This document shows, piece by piece, positions 3,135-7,160 of a DNA stretch of 20,757 nucleotides (within the stretch, counting starts at the first letter, position 1; each line of letters begins with the position of its first letter). The translations under genes and the position numbers were made by a program. This DNA is from a virus. The notes below the pieces were generated by a model that was given only the letters and a program-made list of their open reading frames with translations, had not been told where the DNA came from and did not search any database. Where the stretch lies: the IMG/VR virus record IMGVR_UViG_3300042390_001180, positions 1 through 20,757 of that record; one strand, 5' to 3'.

Positions 3135-3165
3135 GCTATAGTGATGTGCTAAGGCTCACTATAGC
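3135..3165. promoter_or_regulatory. Operator: perfect 10-bp inverted repeat between the divergent genes
   Basis: GCTATAGTGA (3135-3144) and TCACTATAGC (3156-3165) are exact inverted copies around an 11-bp spacer. The right half overlaps the -10 box of the leftward early promoter. This is the expected layout for a phage repressor blocking the early operon, with the repressor gene immediately to the right. Binding by the 3204-3554 product is inferred. Confidence 0.75.
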
Positions 3166-3203: not shown

Positions 3204-3554
3204 ATGTCCGATATTGCTATGGATATGGCACAAGAAATATCTACGCGGTTTAAGGAAGAGCTTGACCGTAATGGATTGAAGGCTAAATCTTTGAGCCGGG
3301 ACATTGATGCGCATGAAAATACGCTGGGCAATTACGTGCGAAATAAAGTGCCAGACCAATGGGTTTATTTGGCTAAATTGCATGAACAAGGCATAGATAT
3401 ACGCTATGTGCTTTTAGGAATAGATCCAGACTTTAATGGGCTGACCAGTGAAGAAAGTTTACTGTTGAAAGCTTATAGACAGCTTGGCCCTGAAGCGCAA
3501 AGTGCGTTATTAGGTTTAAGCACGGTATATGCGAAAGACATGGAAAATAAGTAA
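3204..3554 (+). CDS. Phage repressor-like helix-turn-helix protein (116 aa)
   Basis: I place the start at ATG 3204 because AAAGGTGA at 3191-3198 is a well-spaced ribosome site; the in-frame GTG at 3195 lies inside that site. Residues about 10-55 (helices around ISTRFKEELDRN, KAKSLSRDID and ENTLGNYVRN) look like an XRE-type helix-turn-helix. The middle (DQWVYLAKLHEQGIDIRYVLLG) resembles the region following the HTH in small phage repressors. The C-terminus (LTSEESLLLKAYRQLGPEAQSAL) is a short helical tail, with no LexA-type peptidase domain, so induction by RecA cleavage is not expected. It stands alone, divergent from the early operon and flanked by an operator and a terminator, the classical position of an immunity repressor. 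Confidence 0.75.
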   Translation: MSDIAMDMAQEISTRFKEELDRNGLKAKSLSRDIDAHENTLGNYVRNKVPDQWVYLAKLHEQGIDIRYVLLGIDPDFNGLTSEESLLLKAYRQLGPEAQSALLGLSTVYAKDMENK

Positions 3555-3596: not shown

Positions 3597-4157
3597 TTAT
3601 TCCTCTAGTTTAGTCTGAACTTGGGTCAGCTTATGTTCTAAATCCATCAGTTGATAAATTAAGTCATTGGTTTGATAAGTGACATCTTTTTGCTTTACTG
3701 CTGTCTCTAAAGATTGTCGCCAAATACGCAGTGTACTTAGTGAACAGTCGAGTAATAGTTCTGCTTGATCTTGTGAAATTTCCATTATTTCCCCCTGGGC
3801 AATTTGATTTAATTGAAATTGCCAAACACGGATTTCCGCGTTGTTCCAGATAGGGCTGGAAATGGTATGTTCTCCATTGAACTTAGGATAGATCAGGTCT
3901 GAAAGCGACTCTTTTAGTATCTCTATATCCAATTTTTTGTTCGATTGCTCACTTTTTGCGAACTCATTGAGTAAGTCATTAATTTGGTCTGGACTAATGG
4001 ATAAATGCCCTTTTGCGGTGTCGTGGTTAAATGAAAACTGCGCTTGAACACAGCGATCGACAATTTCAAATAACTGTTTACACAACAATTGGCTTTTTTC
4101 TGTTTTGGCCTGTACCCGGTCTGCAATAGGTACATAGGGAATAATATTGTCGTTCAT
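3597..4157 (-). CDS. Unknown 186-aa protein, candidate antirepressor-position gene
   Basis: The start ATG at 4157 has a GGAAGTAAG ribosome site and overlaps the stop of an upstream reading frame as ATGA, so translation is probably coupled. I do not recognise the family. Residues about 127-148 (ISQDQAELLLDCSLSTLRIW) read like a helix-turn-helix, and residues 160-186 form a heptad-like helix that may mediate dimer formation. The rest is helical and acidic with no export signal. It is the last gene of the leftward C4-RNA transcript and stops at the shared terminator with the repressor. By analogy with P1, where C4 RNA silences icd and the coupled ant gene, an anti-immunity or lytic-switch role is plausible, but there is no visible similarity to P1 Ant. 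Confidence 0.75.
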   Translation of the reverse strand: MNDNIIPYVPIADRVQAKTEKSQLLCKQLFEIVDRCVQAQFSFNHDTAKGHLSISPDQINDLLNEFAKSEQSNKKLDIEILKESLSDLIYPKFNGEHTISSPIWNNAEIRVWQFQLNQIAQGEIMEISQDQAELLLDCSLSTLRIWRQSLETAVKQKDVTYQTNDLIYQLMDLEHKLTQVQTKLEE

Positions 4158-4402
4158 AATCTTACTTCCCTAAAAAAATAGAAAAAGTAAGTACCACACC
4201 GAATAAAAAGGTGAATGACTGAAAAATATTTGCAAGAAGCTTTGCGGATTTTTGCTTTTTTTGGCGCTGGAGATATGCATCTAAGTCGTAAATTGGGGTG
4301 TGCTCTATGATTTGAGCATGATTTGAATGTACGTGTGCGCGGGCTTGAATCTGTCTTTTCATGACTTTTACTCTGATAAGTTTTTTGCAAACCTACCGCC
4401 AT
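4154..4402 (-). other. Overlapping leader reading frame under C4 control
   Basis: An ATG at 4402 with AGGA 5 nt upstream opens an 82-codon frame whose TGA stop (4156-4154) overlaps the start of the 186-aa gene as ATGA. It contains the 66-aa membrane protein gene in another frame. The product is Ser, Arg and Pro rich and does not look selected as a protein. The frame may matter as a ribosome delivery path, since it is the one whose Shine-Dalgarno sequence is complementary to the C4-type RNA. GTG at 4405 is an alternative start. Confidence 0.35.
4162..4362 (-). CDS. Small single-pass membrane protein (66 aa)
   Basis: The protein has a basic, His-rich N-terminal half (MKRQIQARAHVHSNHAQ), a lysine-rich stretch (RQKKQKSAK) and one transmembrane helix at about residues 46-64 (FQSFTFLFGVVLTFSIFLG). 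The positive charge before the helix suggests N-in topology. It ends 4 bp before the 186-aa gene. GAG lies 8 nt before its ATG, a weak ribosome site. A second frame (4402-4154) runs through the same DNA, but its Ser/Arg/Pro-rich product looks like an off-frame shadow, so I prefer this one. The position matches P1 icd, a small inhibitor of cell division under C4 control; the function here is unproven. Confidence 0.6.
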   Translation of the reverse strand: MKRQIQARAHVHSNHAQIIEHTPIYDLDAYLQRQKKQKSAKLLANIFQSFTFLFGVVLTFSIFLGK

Positions 4403-4427
4403 CACTTTCCTAGAATGATGGTGGCAG
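4393..4427 (-). promoter_or_regulatory. Start-site hairpin targeted by the C4-type RNA
   Basis: On the minus strand, 4427-4416 pairs with 4404-4393 in a 12-bp stem with one A-C mismatch and one G-U pair. The start codon of the leader frame lies in the stem, and the Shine-Dalgarno AGGAAAG lies in the 11-nt loop (4415-4405). Eight loop bases, CUAGGAAA (4413-4406), are perfectly complementary to UUUCCUAG at 4446-4439 in the RNA upstream. Confidence 0.6.
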
Positions 4428-4495
4428 ACCGAACAAGGCTAGGAAAACCGTATCAGAGAACGGCCAGCGCGAAGCTGCCCTGCCCGATCTGCCAT
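4420..4495 (-). ncRNA. C4-type phage antisense RNA
   Basis: On the minus strand a 7-bp closing stem, UGGCAGA (4494-4488) with UCUGCCA (4428-4422), encloses two hairpins. One is CAGC/GCUG with loop 4473-4469, extended by two G-C pairs past a mismatch; the other is CCGU/ACGG (4463-4460 with 4451-4448). A single-stranded segment UUUUCCUAGCCUUGUUC follows. This closed multibranch shape, about 75 nt, with an unpaired anti-Shine-Dalgarno segment and a complementary target just downstream on the same transcript, matches the known logic of the P1/P7 C4 RNAs and relatives in proteobacterial phages. A promoter ends exactly at its 5' end. Strand choice rests on that promoter and on the target hairpin; the family name is from memory, not a covariance-model search. 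Confidence 0.65.
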
Positions 4496-4499
4496 AACG

Positions 4500-4527
4500 A
4501 GTATAGCTGATTAGACATTTTAGGCAA
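4500..4527 (-). promoter_or_regulatory. Promoter of the C4-type RNA
   Basis: TTGCCT (4527-4522), a 16-nt spacer and TATACT (4505-4500) on the minus strand place the transcript start near 4494, the first base of the closing stem of the RNA. The -35 box overlaps the A-tract of the neighbouring terminator. Confidence 0.65.
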
Positions 4528-4558
4528 AAAAAAACCGCTGCGAGCGGATATTTTTTGC
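4524..4558. terminator. Bidirectional intrinsic terminator upstream of the C4 promoter
   Basis: CCGCT (4535-4539) and AGCGG (4543-4547) form a stem around GCG, flanked by nine A on the left and six T on the right. The outer GCAAAAAA and TTTTTTGC can also pair. It probably insulates the C4 promoter from leftward readthrough and ends any rightward transcript. Confidence 0.75.
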
Positions 4559-4562
4559 TCTC

Positions 4563-4616
4563 TGATATATTTAACAAGTTTCCTAGGCTTGTACGTAGAT
4601 TTTGCTACGTTTTTTT
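4563..4616 (+). ncRNA. Possible mini-RNA carrying the same seed as the C4-type RNA
   Basis: A plus-strand extended -10 (TGATATATT, 4563-4571) is followed by TTTCCTAGGCTTGT (4579-4592). That segment differs by one base from the anti-Shine-Dalgarno segment of the C4-type RNA. A clean terminator hairpin follows: ACGTAG (4593-4598), CTACGT (4605-4610) and seven T. No coding frame ends here, so the terminator needs another explanation. ACAAG and CTTGT (4574-4578, 4588-4592) can also form a stem displaying the seed in a loop, which read on the minus strand would be a decoy for C4. No -35 box is visible. Speculative. Confidence 0.3.
4593..4616 (+). terminator. Intrinsic terminator
   Basis: A perfect 6-bp stem ACGTAG/CTACGT with loop ATTTTG is followed by a run of seven T (4610-4616). 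It lies upstream of the lipoprotein gene and downstream of no plus-strand gene, so it either isolates the cargo operon or ends a small RNA. Confidence 0.7.
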
Positions 4617-4680
4617 ATATTGCCGATAGTGTGCTGGTATGTCAAGATAGTGAGGTACTATTTTTTATAAAACATTCATT

Positions 4681-5262
4681 ATGAAAAGAATATGCTTAGG
4701 ATTATTTTGCACACTTAGTGTTTTAGGCTGTTCCAATCAAAATCAAAAGTCTACTGATATTGCGTCAAATCCTAAAAGTGAAACTGCACAAAATGAATAT
4801 AAAAATTTAGGTGTTTCTATTGAAGATTTTAAAACCAATTTTAATAAAGAAGCTGAAGCTCTAAATGCACCATTAATTAAAGCTTTTGATCTTGAAGATA
4901 ATAAAAAAGATTTTTCAACAAAGTTACCCAGTCATTTAAAAATTTTGGGTTCTATTGATTCTTCCGGAAATATTGATCGTTTGGTTATTGGATTAGATGT
5001 TTCAAGTATTCCACGAGATCAAGTTGCAGATCACTCTATGATGCTTGGCGGTTTAGCTATCACAGCATTTAAAGCTGTTGATAAAAATAAAATTAATGAA
5101 AAACGTGATGATAGTGTTCAAGACTCCCTTGAAGCATTATTTTCTGATCCAAAAACCTTAGAGGAATTTAATTCCAAAATTAATTTTTATGATCAATACA
5201 AGTTTAGTGCGTCCAGTGACCCAGAGCTTGGGGCAATTATATTAAGTATGGAACCTAAATAA
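4681..5262 (+). CDS. Outer-membrane-type lipoprotein (193 aa), cargo gene
   Basis: The N-terminus is a lipoprotein signal: MKR, a hydrophobic stretch, then VLGC with the acylated Cys at residue 17 and Ser at +2, which predicts outer-membrane sorting. The mature protein is hydrophilic, acidic and asparagine/lysine rich, with no motif I recognise. The start has no clear ribosome site. It begins the AT-rich rightward cargo block, 24 bp before an exported Excalibur protein. Phage-borne lipoproteins often act in superinfection exclusion or lysogenic conversion by masking receptors; that role here is inference from location and export only. Confidence 0.8.
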   Translation: MKRICLGLFCTLSVLGCSNQNQKSTDIASNPKSETAQNEYKNLGVSIEDFKTNFNKEAEALNAPLIKAFDLEDNKKDFSTKLPSHLKILGSIDSSGNIDRLVIGLDVSSIPRDQVADHSMMLGGLAITAFKAVDKNKINEKRDDSVQDSLEALFSDPKTLEEFNSKINFYDQYKFSASSDPELGAIILSMEPK

Positions 5263-5286: not shown

Positions 5287-5502
5287 ATGAAAAACCTAAT
5301 TTTAACTCTTGTGCTTGCACTAAGTGTCCCATCAATGGCCTTCGCCAAATATTGCAAAGACTTTAAAACCCATCAAGAAGCGCAAGCCTATTTTAATGCT
5401 AAAAAACCCGGATATAAACCTTTAGATCGGGATAAGGATGGCAGTGCTTGTGACTGTTTACCTGGTGGAAATGGTAAGAAGTGCCCTAAGAGTAAAAGAT
5501 AA
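5287..5502 (+). CDS. Exported Excalibur calcium-binding domain protein (71 aa)
   Basis: Residues 1-20 form a Sec signal peptide ending AFA. The mature part is a single Excalibur domain: Cys23, an amphipathic helix, then the Ca-binding loop D47-R-D-K-D-G-S-A-C55. The short Cys/Gly/Lys-rich tail ends in CPKSKR. The Asp triad matches the DxDxDGxxC core of the family, found alone or on the ends of secreted nucleases and envelope proteins. Cys23 and Cys55 probably form a disulfide. A weak GAGATAGAA lies before the ATG. A nuclease domain is absent, so a structural or ion-binding envelope role is likelier. It is downstream of the lipoprotein and probably co-transcribed. Confidence 0.85.
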   Translation: MKNLILTLVLALSVPSMAFAKYCKDFKTHQEAQAYFNAKKPGYKPLDRDKDGSACDCLPGGNGKKCPKSKR

Positions 5503-5525: not shown

Positions 5526-6545
5526 ATGTCTATTTGTGCCACATATCATGAATTAACTGCATCAGTTGAATCTCTACTTCAAGAAAAACCAAAAGCAATT
5601 GCAACAATAAATCTGTTTGAGTATTTTCAAAAATTAGCAGAGTGGGGTTATGTAGATTTTAAACGTAATTTTTTAAATGATAGATTTTGTGGCTTGATTT
5701 CAGATTTACAATTTGATGATACAAGTCATGAAGTTAAATTCGTATTTATTATTGCGGATGCAAATGCAGAGAATCAAATTGCACGAAATATGGAAACAAA
5801 TAAAACACGCCATTTAAAAAGAGAAAATAATGAAGGTGCAGATAAAAGGGTTAATGTTGCCATAAGAGTAGATGCTGTTAATCCAGCAATTGCTAAAATT
5901 GCTTTAGAGTATGAGCGAGGTATAACAATTAAAAAACTTGTTGATACCTTGAATTATTTTCTTGGTCATGCAAGAAACCATGGTGGTTTTGAAAGCTATT
6001 TTATTGGTGATGATCCTGTAGAGCGGTATCAAAAAGGACCTAAGACTGGCCAACCTAAACCTTTGGCTTATAAACCTAAATTAGAGATTAAAGCCGAAGT
6101 TGATCCAAGTATTGTCAAAGCCTTTGAAGACGGCAAAATTCAGCACGTAGATTTTTATAAACAAGCACAAAACAATACTTCATTTGATGCTACTGGGCAC
6201 TTTACACAAGATAAAATTAAAGTATCTATGAAGGTGGATACTCAAATTATTGATCCTAATTCAACAGCATTTGAAGCAAAAGTAAACGATATTAAAAATA
6301 CCTTTAGAATGTTTAAAAGTGGACAACCTGATATGCAAGGTTCTGTTTTCAATATTAATTTTAAAGATAATAATGGAAGTCTAAGATCGGCAGAATATGA
6401 TGCTGATGATGAGATTTTTCGTTTAGTTAAAAAAGAATATTTTCCAGAAGAGTTGCGACAATCTATGTCGGAGGAAGATGAAAATGGTGAGAGCCCTGCT
6501 CGTGCCAACATTCCCCTGTGTGATAGAATGTTAGCTAAGATGTAA
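5526..6545 (+). CDS. Unknown 339-aa cytoplasmic protein, candidate defence/sensor component
   Basis: AAGGAA upstream of ATG 5526 supports the start. There is no signal peptide or membrane segment. An N-terminal part (about 1-160) alternates strands and helices, with KTRHLKRENN near 95-104 and a long helix IKKLVDTLNYFLGHARN. A proline/lysine-rich linker (about 166-185) leads to a second globular part (about 186-315) and an acidic tail (SMSEEDENGES). I see no Walker, nuclease or methylase motif. The tail end overlaps nothing, and the membrane-protein gene follows after 24 bp with a strong ribosome site, so the two probably form one unit. A soluble protein paired with a small multi-helix membrane protein in a phage cargo slot resembles known two-part anti-phage systems; that reading is inference. 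Confidence 0.8.
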   Translation: MSICATYHELTASVESLLQEKPKAIATINLFEYFQKLAEWGYVDFKRNFLNDRFCGLISDLQFDDTSHEVKFVFIIADANAENQIARNMETNKTRHLKRENNEGADKRVNVAIRVDAVNPAIAKIALEYERGITIKKLVDTLNYFLGHARNHGGFESYFIGDDPVERYQKGPKTGQPKPLAYKPKLEIKAEVDPSIVKAFEDGKIQHVDFYKQAQNNTSFDATGHFTQDKIKVSMKVDTQIIDPNSTAFEAKVNDIKNTFRMFKSGQPDMQGSVFNINFKDNNGSLRSAEYDADDEIFRLVKKEYFPEELRQSMSEEDENGESPARANIPLCDRMLAKM

Positions 6546-6569
6546 TCCCACCTATAAAAGGAGGTAGTT

Positions 6570-7160
6570 ATGTTTGAATTGATATTTAAGCCATTAAACT
6601 ATCTTAGTATAAGATGGGATAATGGAATCATTAATAAAACTCGGTTTGATTTTATTATTCCCACTATAATTGCTTTATTTATTAGTGCAGTTATGACTTT
6701 TATATGGTTTATAATTGGTTCTGGTAAATCAAACATTTTTACAAATGATTTAACTTATTATTTAATTTGTTTTCTACAAACTATGCCGGGTTTTTATATT
6801 GCAGCCTTAGCTGCAATATCTACTATCAATAGTACTACTATGGATCAGCCTATGGCGGGAGACCCTCCTAAAGAAAAGTATGTTGAATATAATCCATATA
6901 AAGTTTATTGGATTGAAATGAACAGAAGAAGATTTTTAGCAAGATTATTTTCTTACCTTACATTTATTAGCATTACATTGTTTGGTTTTTTATTAATCAT
7001 TAGATTTTCTTATAGTTTAGAAATTAAAATTTCTTCACTTTGGTTGATTTATTTAACCTATTTTATTTCTTGTTTTATTATTATTTTTTCTCTCGCACAA
7101 CTAATAATGATGACATTTTTAAGTCTTTATTATTTAGGTGAAAGAGTACATAAAAACTAA
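6570..7160 (+). CDS. Four-helix inner-membrane protein (196 aa), candidate effector partner
   Basis: A near-ideal ribosome site, AAAGGAGGTAG, precedes ATG 6570, the strongest in the cargo block. Hydrophobic segments lie at about 27-50, 61-84, 121-149 and 155-190. A polar loop at 85-120 contains a Pro/Gly-rich patch (MAGDPPKEKYVEYNPY) and the basic MNRRRFLARL before the third helix. Both termini are probably cytoplasmic. No transporter or enzyme family is recognised. It closes the cargo operon and is followed directly by an intrinsic terminator. Partnering with the 339-aa protein is suggested by spacing. As a membrane effector of an abortive-infection or superinfection-exclusion system it would be typical in size, but it could also be an unrelated envelope modifier. 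Confidence 0.8.
   Translation: MFELIFKPLNYLSIRWDNGIINKTRFDFIIPTIIALFISAVMTFIWFIIGSGKSNIFTNDLTYYLICFLQTMPGFYIAALAAISTINSTTMDQPMAGDPPKEKYVEYNPYKVYWIEMNRRRFLARLFSYLTFISITLFGFLLIIRFSYSLEIKISSLWLIYLTYFISCFIIIFSLAQLIMMTFLSLYYLGERVHKN

Follow-up and report, generated by a model that had tools for sequence, protein, structure and literature searches.

Beside the repressor gene of this prophage lies a control region that resembles the immI switch of phages P1 and P7, a textbook antisense switch from two E. coli phages. Does it work in the same way, and what does it control? The window analysed here is the whole of the IMG/VR record of the prophage (IMGVR_UViG_3300042390_001180, 20757 bases). The prophage is P2-like and of the Acinetobacter type, with genes for GpU, the FII tail tube, the sheath, Tail_P2_I and Ogr. 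Its 116-aa phage repressor-like protein of the HTH Cro/C1 type (3204-3554, plus strand; a sub-threshold Pfam match, and phrog_8, transcriptional regulator, at 1e-5) is encoded convergently with an operon for a 66-aa and a 186-aa protein. An initial annotation had read this operon as following the C4-icd-ant logic of P1 and P7. When checked against the annotated P1 record, the full P1 layout proved to be present, which supports that reading. We put at nearly four in five the probability that the module is an immI-type switch of the P1 kind, controlled by the repressor, in which a C4 RNA silences the 66-aa/186-aa operon. At the level of sequence, this reading is carried by the fold of C4, by four complementary sites that covary with it, and by gene order, linkage, the shared operator and the conserved internal ATG.

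A C4 RNA with four covarying complementary sites

The Rfam covariance model for C4 antisense RNA (RF01695) matched positions 4417-4499 on the minus strand over its complete length (model positions 1-87) and scored 59.7 bits, well over the gathering score of 45. The stretch folds into a three-stem multibranch structure of -39.5 kcal/mol (z -5.3). Both the C4-type RNA and its multibranch shape had been proposed in the initial annotation, and both were borne out by these results. Among 19 C4 sequences including that of P1, 12 of the 24 stem pairs have changed on both sides with the pairing kept. The window C4 also carries GGC after the expected RNase P cut region, as do two C4-like RNAs of A. baumannii AB5075 (PMC5320573).

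We adopted the P1 usage, in which a denotes the 3' single-stranded segment of C4 and b the loop of its second hairpin. The window's a segment is UUUCCUAG (4446-4439) and its b segment is UCUCUGAUA (4459-4451). Each has two complementary sites on the minus strand, and all four pair perfectly with C4 over 8-9 nt. Upstream of C4 are a1 (CTAGGAAA, 4579-4586, flanked by the short arms CAAG and CTTG) and b1 (TATCAGAGA, 4559-4567). Downstream are a2 (CTAGGAAA, 4406-4413), which lies in a hairpin loop, and b2 (TATCAGAG, 4371-4378), which lies just 5' of the start codon of the 66-aa gene. The initial annotation had correctly noticed the complementarity of UUUCCUAG to CUAGGAAA (4413-4406), which is one of these four pairings; the other three had escaped it. 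In the a2 hairpin, the 3' strand of C4 pairs with the bases 3' of a2 (ATGGCGGTAGG, the second strand), exposing a2 in the loop. This hairpin forms in P1 too.

Relatives of the 186-aa protein were taken from viral contigs and genomes. Across 43 distinct modules, perfect matches of 7-11 nt link the a and b segments to a1, b1, a2 and b2 in nearly all cases. The exceptions are an orphan C4 that lacks downstream sites and a module whose b1 is broken. Among these modules, a occurs in seven sequence versions and b in about fifteen. At each of the four sites, none of 5000 shuffles was as good as self-pairing, a count that is not a probability and that overstates independence, because the loci belong mostly to one group of Acinetobacter prophages with many close relatives. 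Repeated matched changes in C4 and in its targets are hard to explain without pairing, and the UUUCCUAG/CUAGGAAA pairing, which covaries across the 43 modules, exceeds chance.

Promoters, operator and leader region

Directly 5' of C4 lies the promoter-like sequence TTGCCT-16-TATACT (4500-4527, minus strand). The initial annotation had proposed it as the C4 promoter; the single match is not above chance in a scan of the window, but its form (a TTG-type -35 with a TATACT- or TAGACT-type -10) is kept in 41 of the 43 modules, 34 of them with the 16-nt spacer. Farther upstream is a second promoter sequence, TTGACA-17-CAATAT (4617-4645, minus strand). It is followed, in this order, by the a1/b1 region, by an intrinsic-terminator-like hairpin with a subsequent T9 (4535-4547, minus strand) and by TTGCCT-16-TATACT.

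The divergent region between the repressor and the lytic genes contains a putative operator, the perfect inverted repeat GCTATAGTGA...TCACTATAGC (3135-3165), which includes the window's best match to the operator profile, ATAGTGATGTGCTAA (3138-3152). The second best match is a putative operator palindrome, ATAGTGAGGTACTAT (4647-4661), and it abuts the -35 element TTGACA (4645-4640) of the upstream promoter. This palindrome has 2 mismatches, and two matches as good in the whole window arise in 16 of 100 shuffles. Because matches in the window are not rare by chance, the case for this operator rests on its position and its conservation: an operator-like palindrome occurs at fixed positions at 47 distinct C4 promoters, with a median score of 13.5 against -1.7 for background stretches. 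The putative site would thereby match the placement in the P1 record (NC_005856), where the C1 operator Oc4 covers the -35 of the upstream c4 promoter P2c4 (formerly P51a). That record has a second promoter, P51b, and also annotates a1, b1, C4, a2, b2, icd, ant1 and ant2.

The leader region itself was compared with two RNA families. An isrK-like element (RF01394) at 4528-4611 on the minus strand scored 31.9 bits, below the gathering score of 50; P1's own a1/b1 region scored 35.1 bits against the same model. The c4-a1b1 model (RF03163) gave no match in 4100-4700 at E up to 1, whereas it matched P1, and the a1 and b1 sites of the window were identified by their complementarity to C4. The isrK resemblance raises the question of whether the operon could instead be controlled as in Gifsy-1, where the published action is trans-activation by the short IsrK RNA (PMC4825925). 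The short leader would then activate translation of the operon in trans, and the C4-like part would be a stable by-product. The isrK-like match comes with a terminator, and the Gifsy-1 locus isrK-STnc1160-orf45-anrP has a similar layout (PMC4825925), with a terminator-bearing leader RNA, a processed C4/CI-like RNA (STnc1160), a small ORF and an antirepressor-like gene. However, the window's isrK score stays below the cut-off, and P1, in which translation of icd/ant is annotated as repressed by C4, scores about the same. Moreover, the two C4 segments covary with the downstream sites so that complementarity is preserved, as would be expected if C4 itself acts. We give the Gifsy-1 type of control a low probability, although it is compatible with repression by C4 and the two are not exclusive.

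The regulated genes and the proposed antirepressor

Which start codon C4 would control was decided by conservation. The initial annotation had placed the regulated small gene at 4402, with CUAGGAAA as its ribosome site, and had described it as joined to the 186-aa gene by ATGA. In this window the leader frame (4154-4405, minus strand; 83 or 82 codons from 4405 or 4402) indeed has AGGA before its GTG/ATG, is open to 4154 and overlaps the start of the 186-aa gene by ATGA. But the window is the sole module without a stop in this frame; in relatives the frame meets a stop after as few as 6-15 codons, is shifted, or is fused with the gene that follows. The leader peptide was rejected as a conserved product, since its length and frame vary freely. 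Its start region is the stem of the conserved hairpin, and the bases there are conserved because they pair with the 3' strand of C4. In addition, CUAGGAAA is the equivalent of the P1 a2 site, which is no ribosome site in P1 and has no start codon after it. That C4 targets the leader frame is thus very doubtful.

The conserved small protein is instead encoded by the 66-aa frame (4362-4162, minus strand), a small membrane-protein-like gene at the icd position (phrog_24540, 1.5e-14). Its ATG lies 55 nt after C4 in the window and at +49 to +58 in the modules carrying the gene, and the 186-aa gene starts 4 nt after its stop. Since this frame is conserved and the leader frame is not, the regulated start is placed at b2; b2, not a2, would cover it, as in P1. 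The spacing after the end of C4 is also close in P1 and the window: +4 in both for a2, +33 and +39 for b2, and +51 and +55 for the ATG at the icd position. Homology of the 66-aa protein to Icd was not found, with no BLASTP alignment and different PHROGs.

The gene at the ant position (3597-4157, minus strand) encodes the 186-aa protein, our proposed antirepressor, which belongs to phrog_25537, a family of unannotated function. Neither this protein nor the 66-aa protein matched a named family. A relationship between the 186-aa protein and known antirepressors was considered and rejected after searches of Pfam, PHROGs, NCBIfam, PADLOC and PDB sequences and an hhalign comparison with P1 Ant1: phrog_25537 was the only match, with no PF09669 or antirepressor PHROG among the results, and the hhalign probability was 0.2%, with different PHROGs for the two proteins. 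The initial annotation saw no relation between the effectors and Icd or Ant, and by profile and BLAST this holds. It had also called the 186-aa protein HTH-like. The structural model (mean pLDDT 71) has an alpha/beta part and a helical hairpin, with a low-confidence linker (residues 118-128) between them. In fold searches neither of the two models used had a match with E below 0.001, and the VIA-align Z was at most 6.0, the rows for residues 19-117 being mostly winged-helix proteins. The N-terminal half can accordingly be called winged-helix-like, but with a Z of about 6 and a pLDDT of about 71 the matches are too weak to claim a winged-helix fold for residues 19-117.

A second feature of this gene recalls ant. 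In P1, Ant1 forms the antirepressor complex together with Ant2, which is made from an in-frame start inside the same gene (PMC8546580; P1 record). In the window, an in-frame ATG at 3785-3783 (codon 125), with the Shine-Dalgarno sequence AGGGGG at 3796-3791, would give a putative C-terminal product of 62 aa (3597-3785, minus strand). This ATG sits in the interdomain linker, the most variable part of the sequence, and yet the methionine is kept in 15 of the 16 rows of the homologue alignment and shifted by one in the other. A purine-rich stretch resembling a ribosome site usually precedes it in the homologues. Its Shine-Dalgarno energy ranks third among 180 codons in the window and exceeds that at the start of the 186-aa gene; in some homologues the strength at this ATG is unremarkable.

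We lean towards the 186-aa protein being a new antirepressor that inactivates the neighbouring repressor. The narrower proposal, that members of its family act as a new antirepressor unrelated to Ant1/Ant2 and made of two products, the full-length protein and the 62-aa C-terminal piece, is put forward tentatively, with slightly less than even confidence.

Taken together, the switch would most likely operate as follows. By binding the operator at 4647-4661, the phage repressor would keep the upstream promoter (4645-4617) shut. C4 would be made from its own promoter and/or excised from a long transcript by presumed processing. By pairing with a2 and b2 of the operon mRNA, C4 would block ribosome entry at the 66-aa gene in trans, and the 186-aa gene, presumably coupled to it in translation, would stay silent. 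If the repressor fails, the upstream promoter would yield a short a1/b1 leader RNA as well as read-through mRNA, and the operon would be translated. By a suggestion borrowed from Gifsy-1 IsrK (PMC4825925), the leader RNA could act as a sponge that soaks up C4. The 186-aa protein would then inactivate the repressor, probably as the full-length protein together with the 62-aa internal-start product. The roles assigned here to C4 and its sites derive from the P1 homology and the covariation.

Linkage, distribution and relation to known systems

A repressor homologue was found beside the 186-aa gene at 55 of 56 loci, and at all 21 further loci (diverged or additional), including those with homologues of 36-58% identity. 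A C4 RNA lies upstream of the 186-aa gene at every locus with enough upstream sequence. With the repressor as the query, 40 loci were obtained, most of them contigs already found; the five new ones all have C4 and the 186-aa gene. The trio of C4, repressor and 186-aa gene is kept by homologues down to 36% identity. The 186-aa protein occurred in 13 of the 299 Moraxellaceae genomes searched and was absent from the 50,697 phage and 72,556 plasmid records searched. Some sister operons have a further gene between those for the 66-aa and 186-aa proteins; it encodes a Rha-family regulator (PF09669, which also matches antirepressor PHROGs). Loci L020, L009, L138, L190, L198 and L199 have a Rha-family gene between C4 and the 186-aa homologue.

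These data bear on whether the C4 switch might be real while the 186-aa protein serves early lytic growth or host takeover in some other way (as an activator, a replication protein or a toxin-like protein) and only happens to be kept beside the repressor. The constant linkage fits any phage control function. The protein is similar to no antirepressor, a winged-helix-like N-terminal half is what a DNA-binding regulator might have, and the Rha-family regulator, where present, could be the antirepressor. However, the Rha gene is missing from most modules, whereas the 186-aa gene and the repressor family always occur together, even at 36-51% identity, and the 186-aa gene stands at the ant position with an internal start like that of Ant1/Ant2. 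We consider such another function unlikely, though it deserves serious weight, and retain the antirepressor as the preferred reading.

Several loci differ in the arrangement of C4. Two tandem C4 RNAs with different antisense sequences occur in L009, L012, L014, L016 and L044. In L009 and L012, a truncated small gene and a gene on the opposite strand come after the first C4, and in L044 the first C4 has lost its downstream targets. On one A. rathckeae contig, the C4 module is present in two identical copies separated by about 377 kb (L056/L057). An A. calcoaceticus genome (G004, loci L066-L085) contains 24 dispersed C4 matches, with complementary-looking sites of their own upstream; in the 20 regions retrieved, no conserved effector operon is visible. 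The dispersed loci are mostly orphan elements, and their antisense sequences are unlike those of the prophage modules.

C4-like RNAs are already known in Acinetobacter. A. baumannii AB5075 has 21 C4-like sRNAs (Weiss et al. 2016, PMC5320573), and their processing was seen by RNA-seq (PMC5320573). The Group 1 RNAs of that strain share with the window the C4 fold, the variable antisense loops and the genus, but they are dispersed chromosomal RNAs for which no effector operon is described (PMC5320573). Both these sRNAs and the 20 orphan-like regions in A. calcoaceticus would be in keeping with the window's C4 being a degenerate, functionless relic of the same kind. Here, by contrast, nothing is missing from the two target pairs, the two promoters, the operator or the two genes, and they covary; we regard a relic as extremely improbable. 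Two A. baumannii RNA-interactome papers of 2024-2025 do not mention C4 antisense RNAs, and in the open-licence literature we found the prophage module and its effector operon nowhere described. What appears to be new in these sequences is the prophage module with an effector operon.

The likeness to P1/P7 immI extends over C4, a1/b1, a2/b2, the terminator-like hairpin before C4, the a2 hairpin, the repressor operator on the upstream promoter, the genes at the icd and ant positions and the in-frame internal start in the latter, which in the window is a matter of sequence evidence. The differences lie in the proteins, which are unrelated to Icd and Ant1 by profile and BLAST, in the extra promoter-like sequence between the terminator and C4, and in the phage itself, which is P2-like and in which the switch is partnered by an HTH repressor of 116 aa that has another operator. 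P4 immunity by CI RNA (seqA/cI/seqC), as outlined in PMC4825925, likewise involves a small RNA that pairs with sites up- and downstream of itself; in that outline CI acts on transcription termination of replication genes, whereas b2 of the window lies at a start codon.

The RNA and DNA design known from P1 thus recurs in a large group of P2-like prophages of Acinetobacter and other Moraxellaceae, with unrelated effectors and in dozens of variants, suggesting that the classic E. coli phage switch is a module that can couple to new proteins. Because dozens of natural variants exist, the evolution and mutual exclusion of antisense immunity groups can be studied. On our reading, phrog_25537 is a likely prophage inducer family in Acinetobacter. 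If the two-product antirepressor is real, the C4 switch would be an exchangeable RNA front end for unrelated antirepressors, and, if the switch works as proposed, Acinetobacter prophages would fall into many separate immunity groups, defined by the a types, of which there are at least seven, and the roughly fifteen b types.

Divergent from the C4 operon, at 5526-7160 on the plus strand, is an adjacent gene pair similar to the PADLOC candidate defence genes PDC-M53A (2.7e-20) and PDC-M53B (7.2e-37). A gene at 5287-5502 on the plus strand encodes a secreted-looking 71-aa protein with an Excalibur calcium-binding domain, and the diverged module L139 is also adjoined by a gene similar to it.
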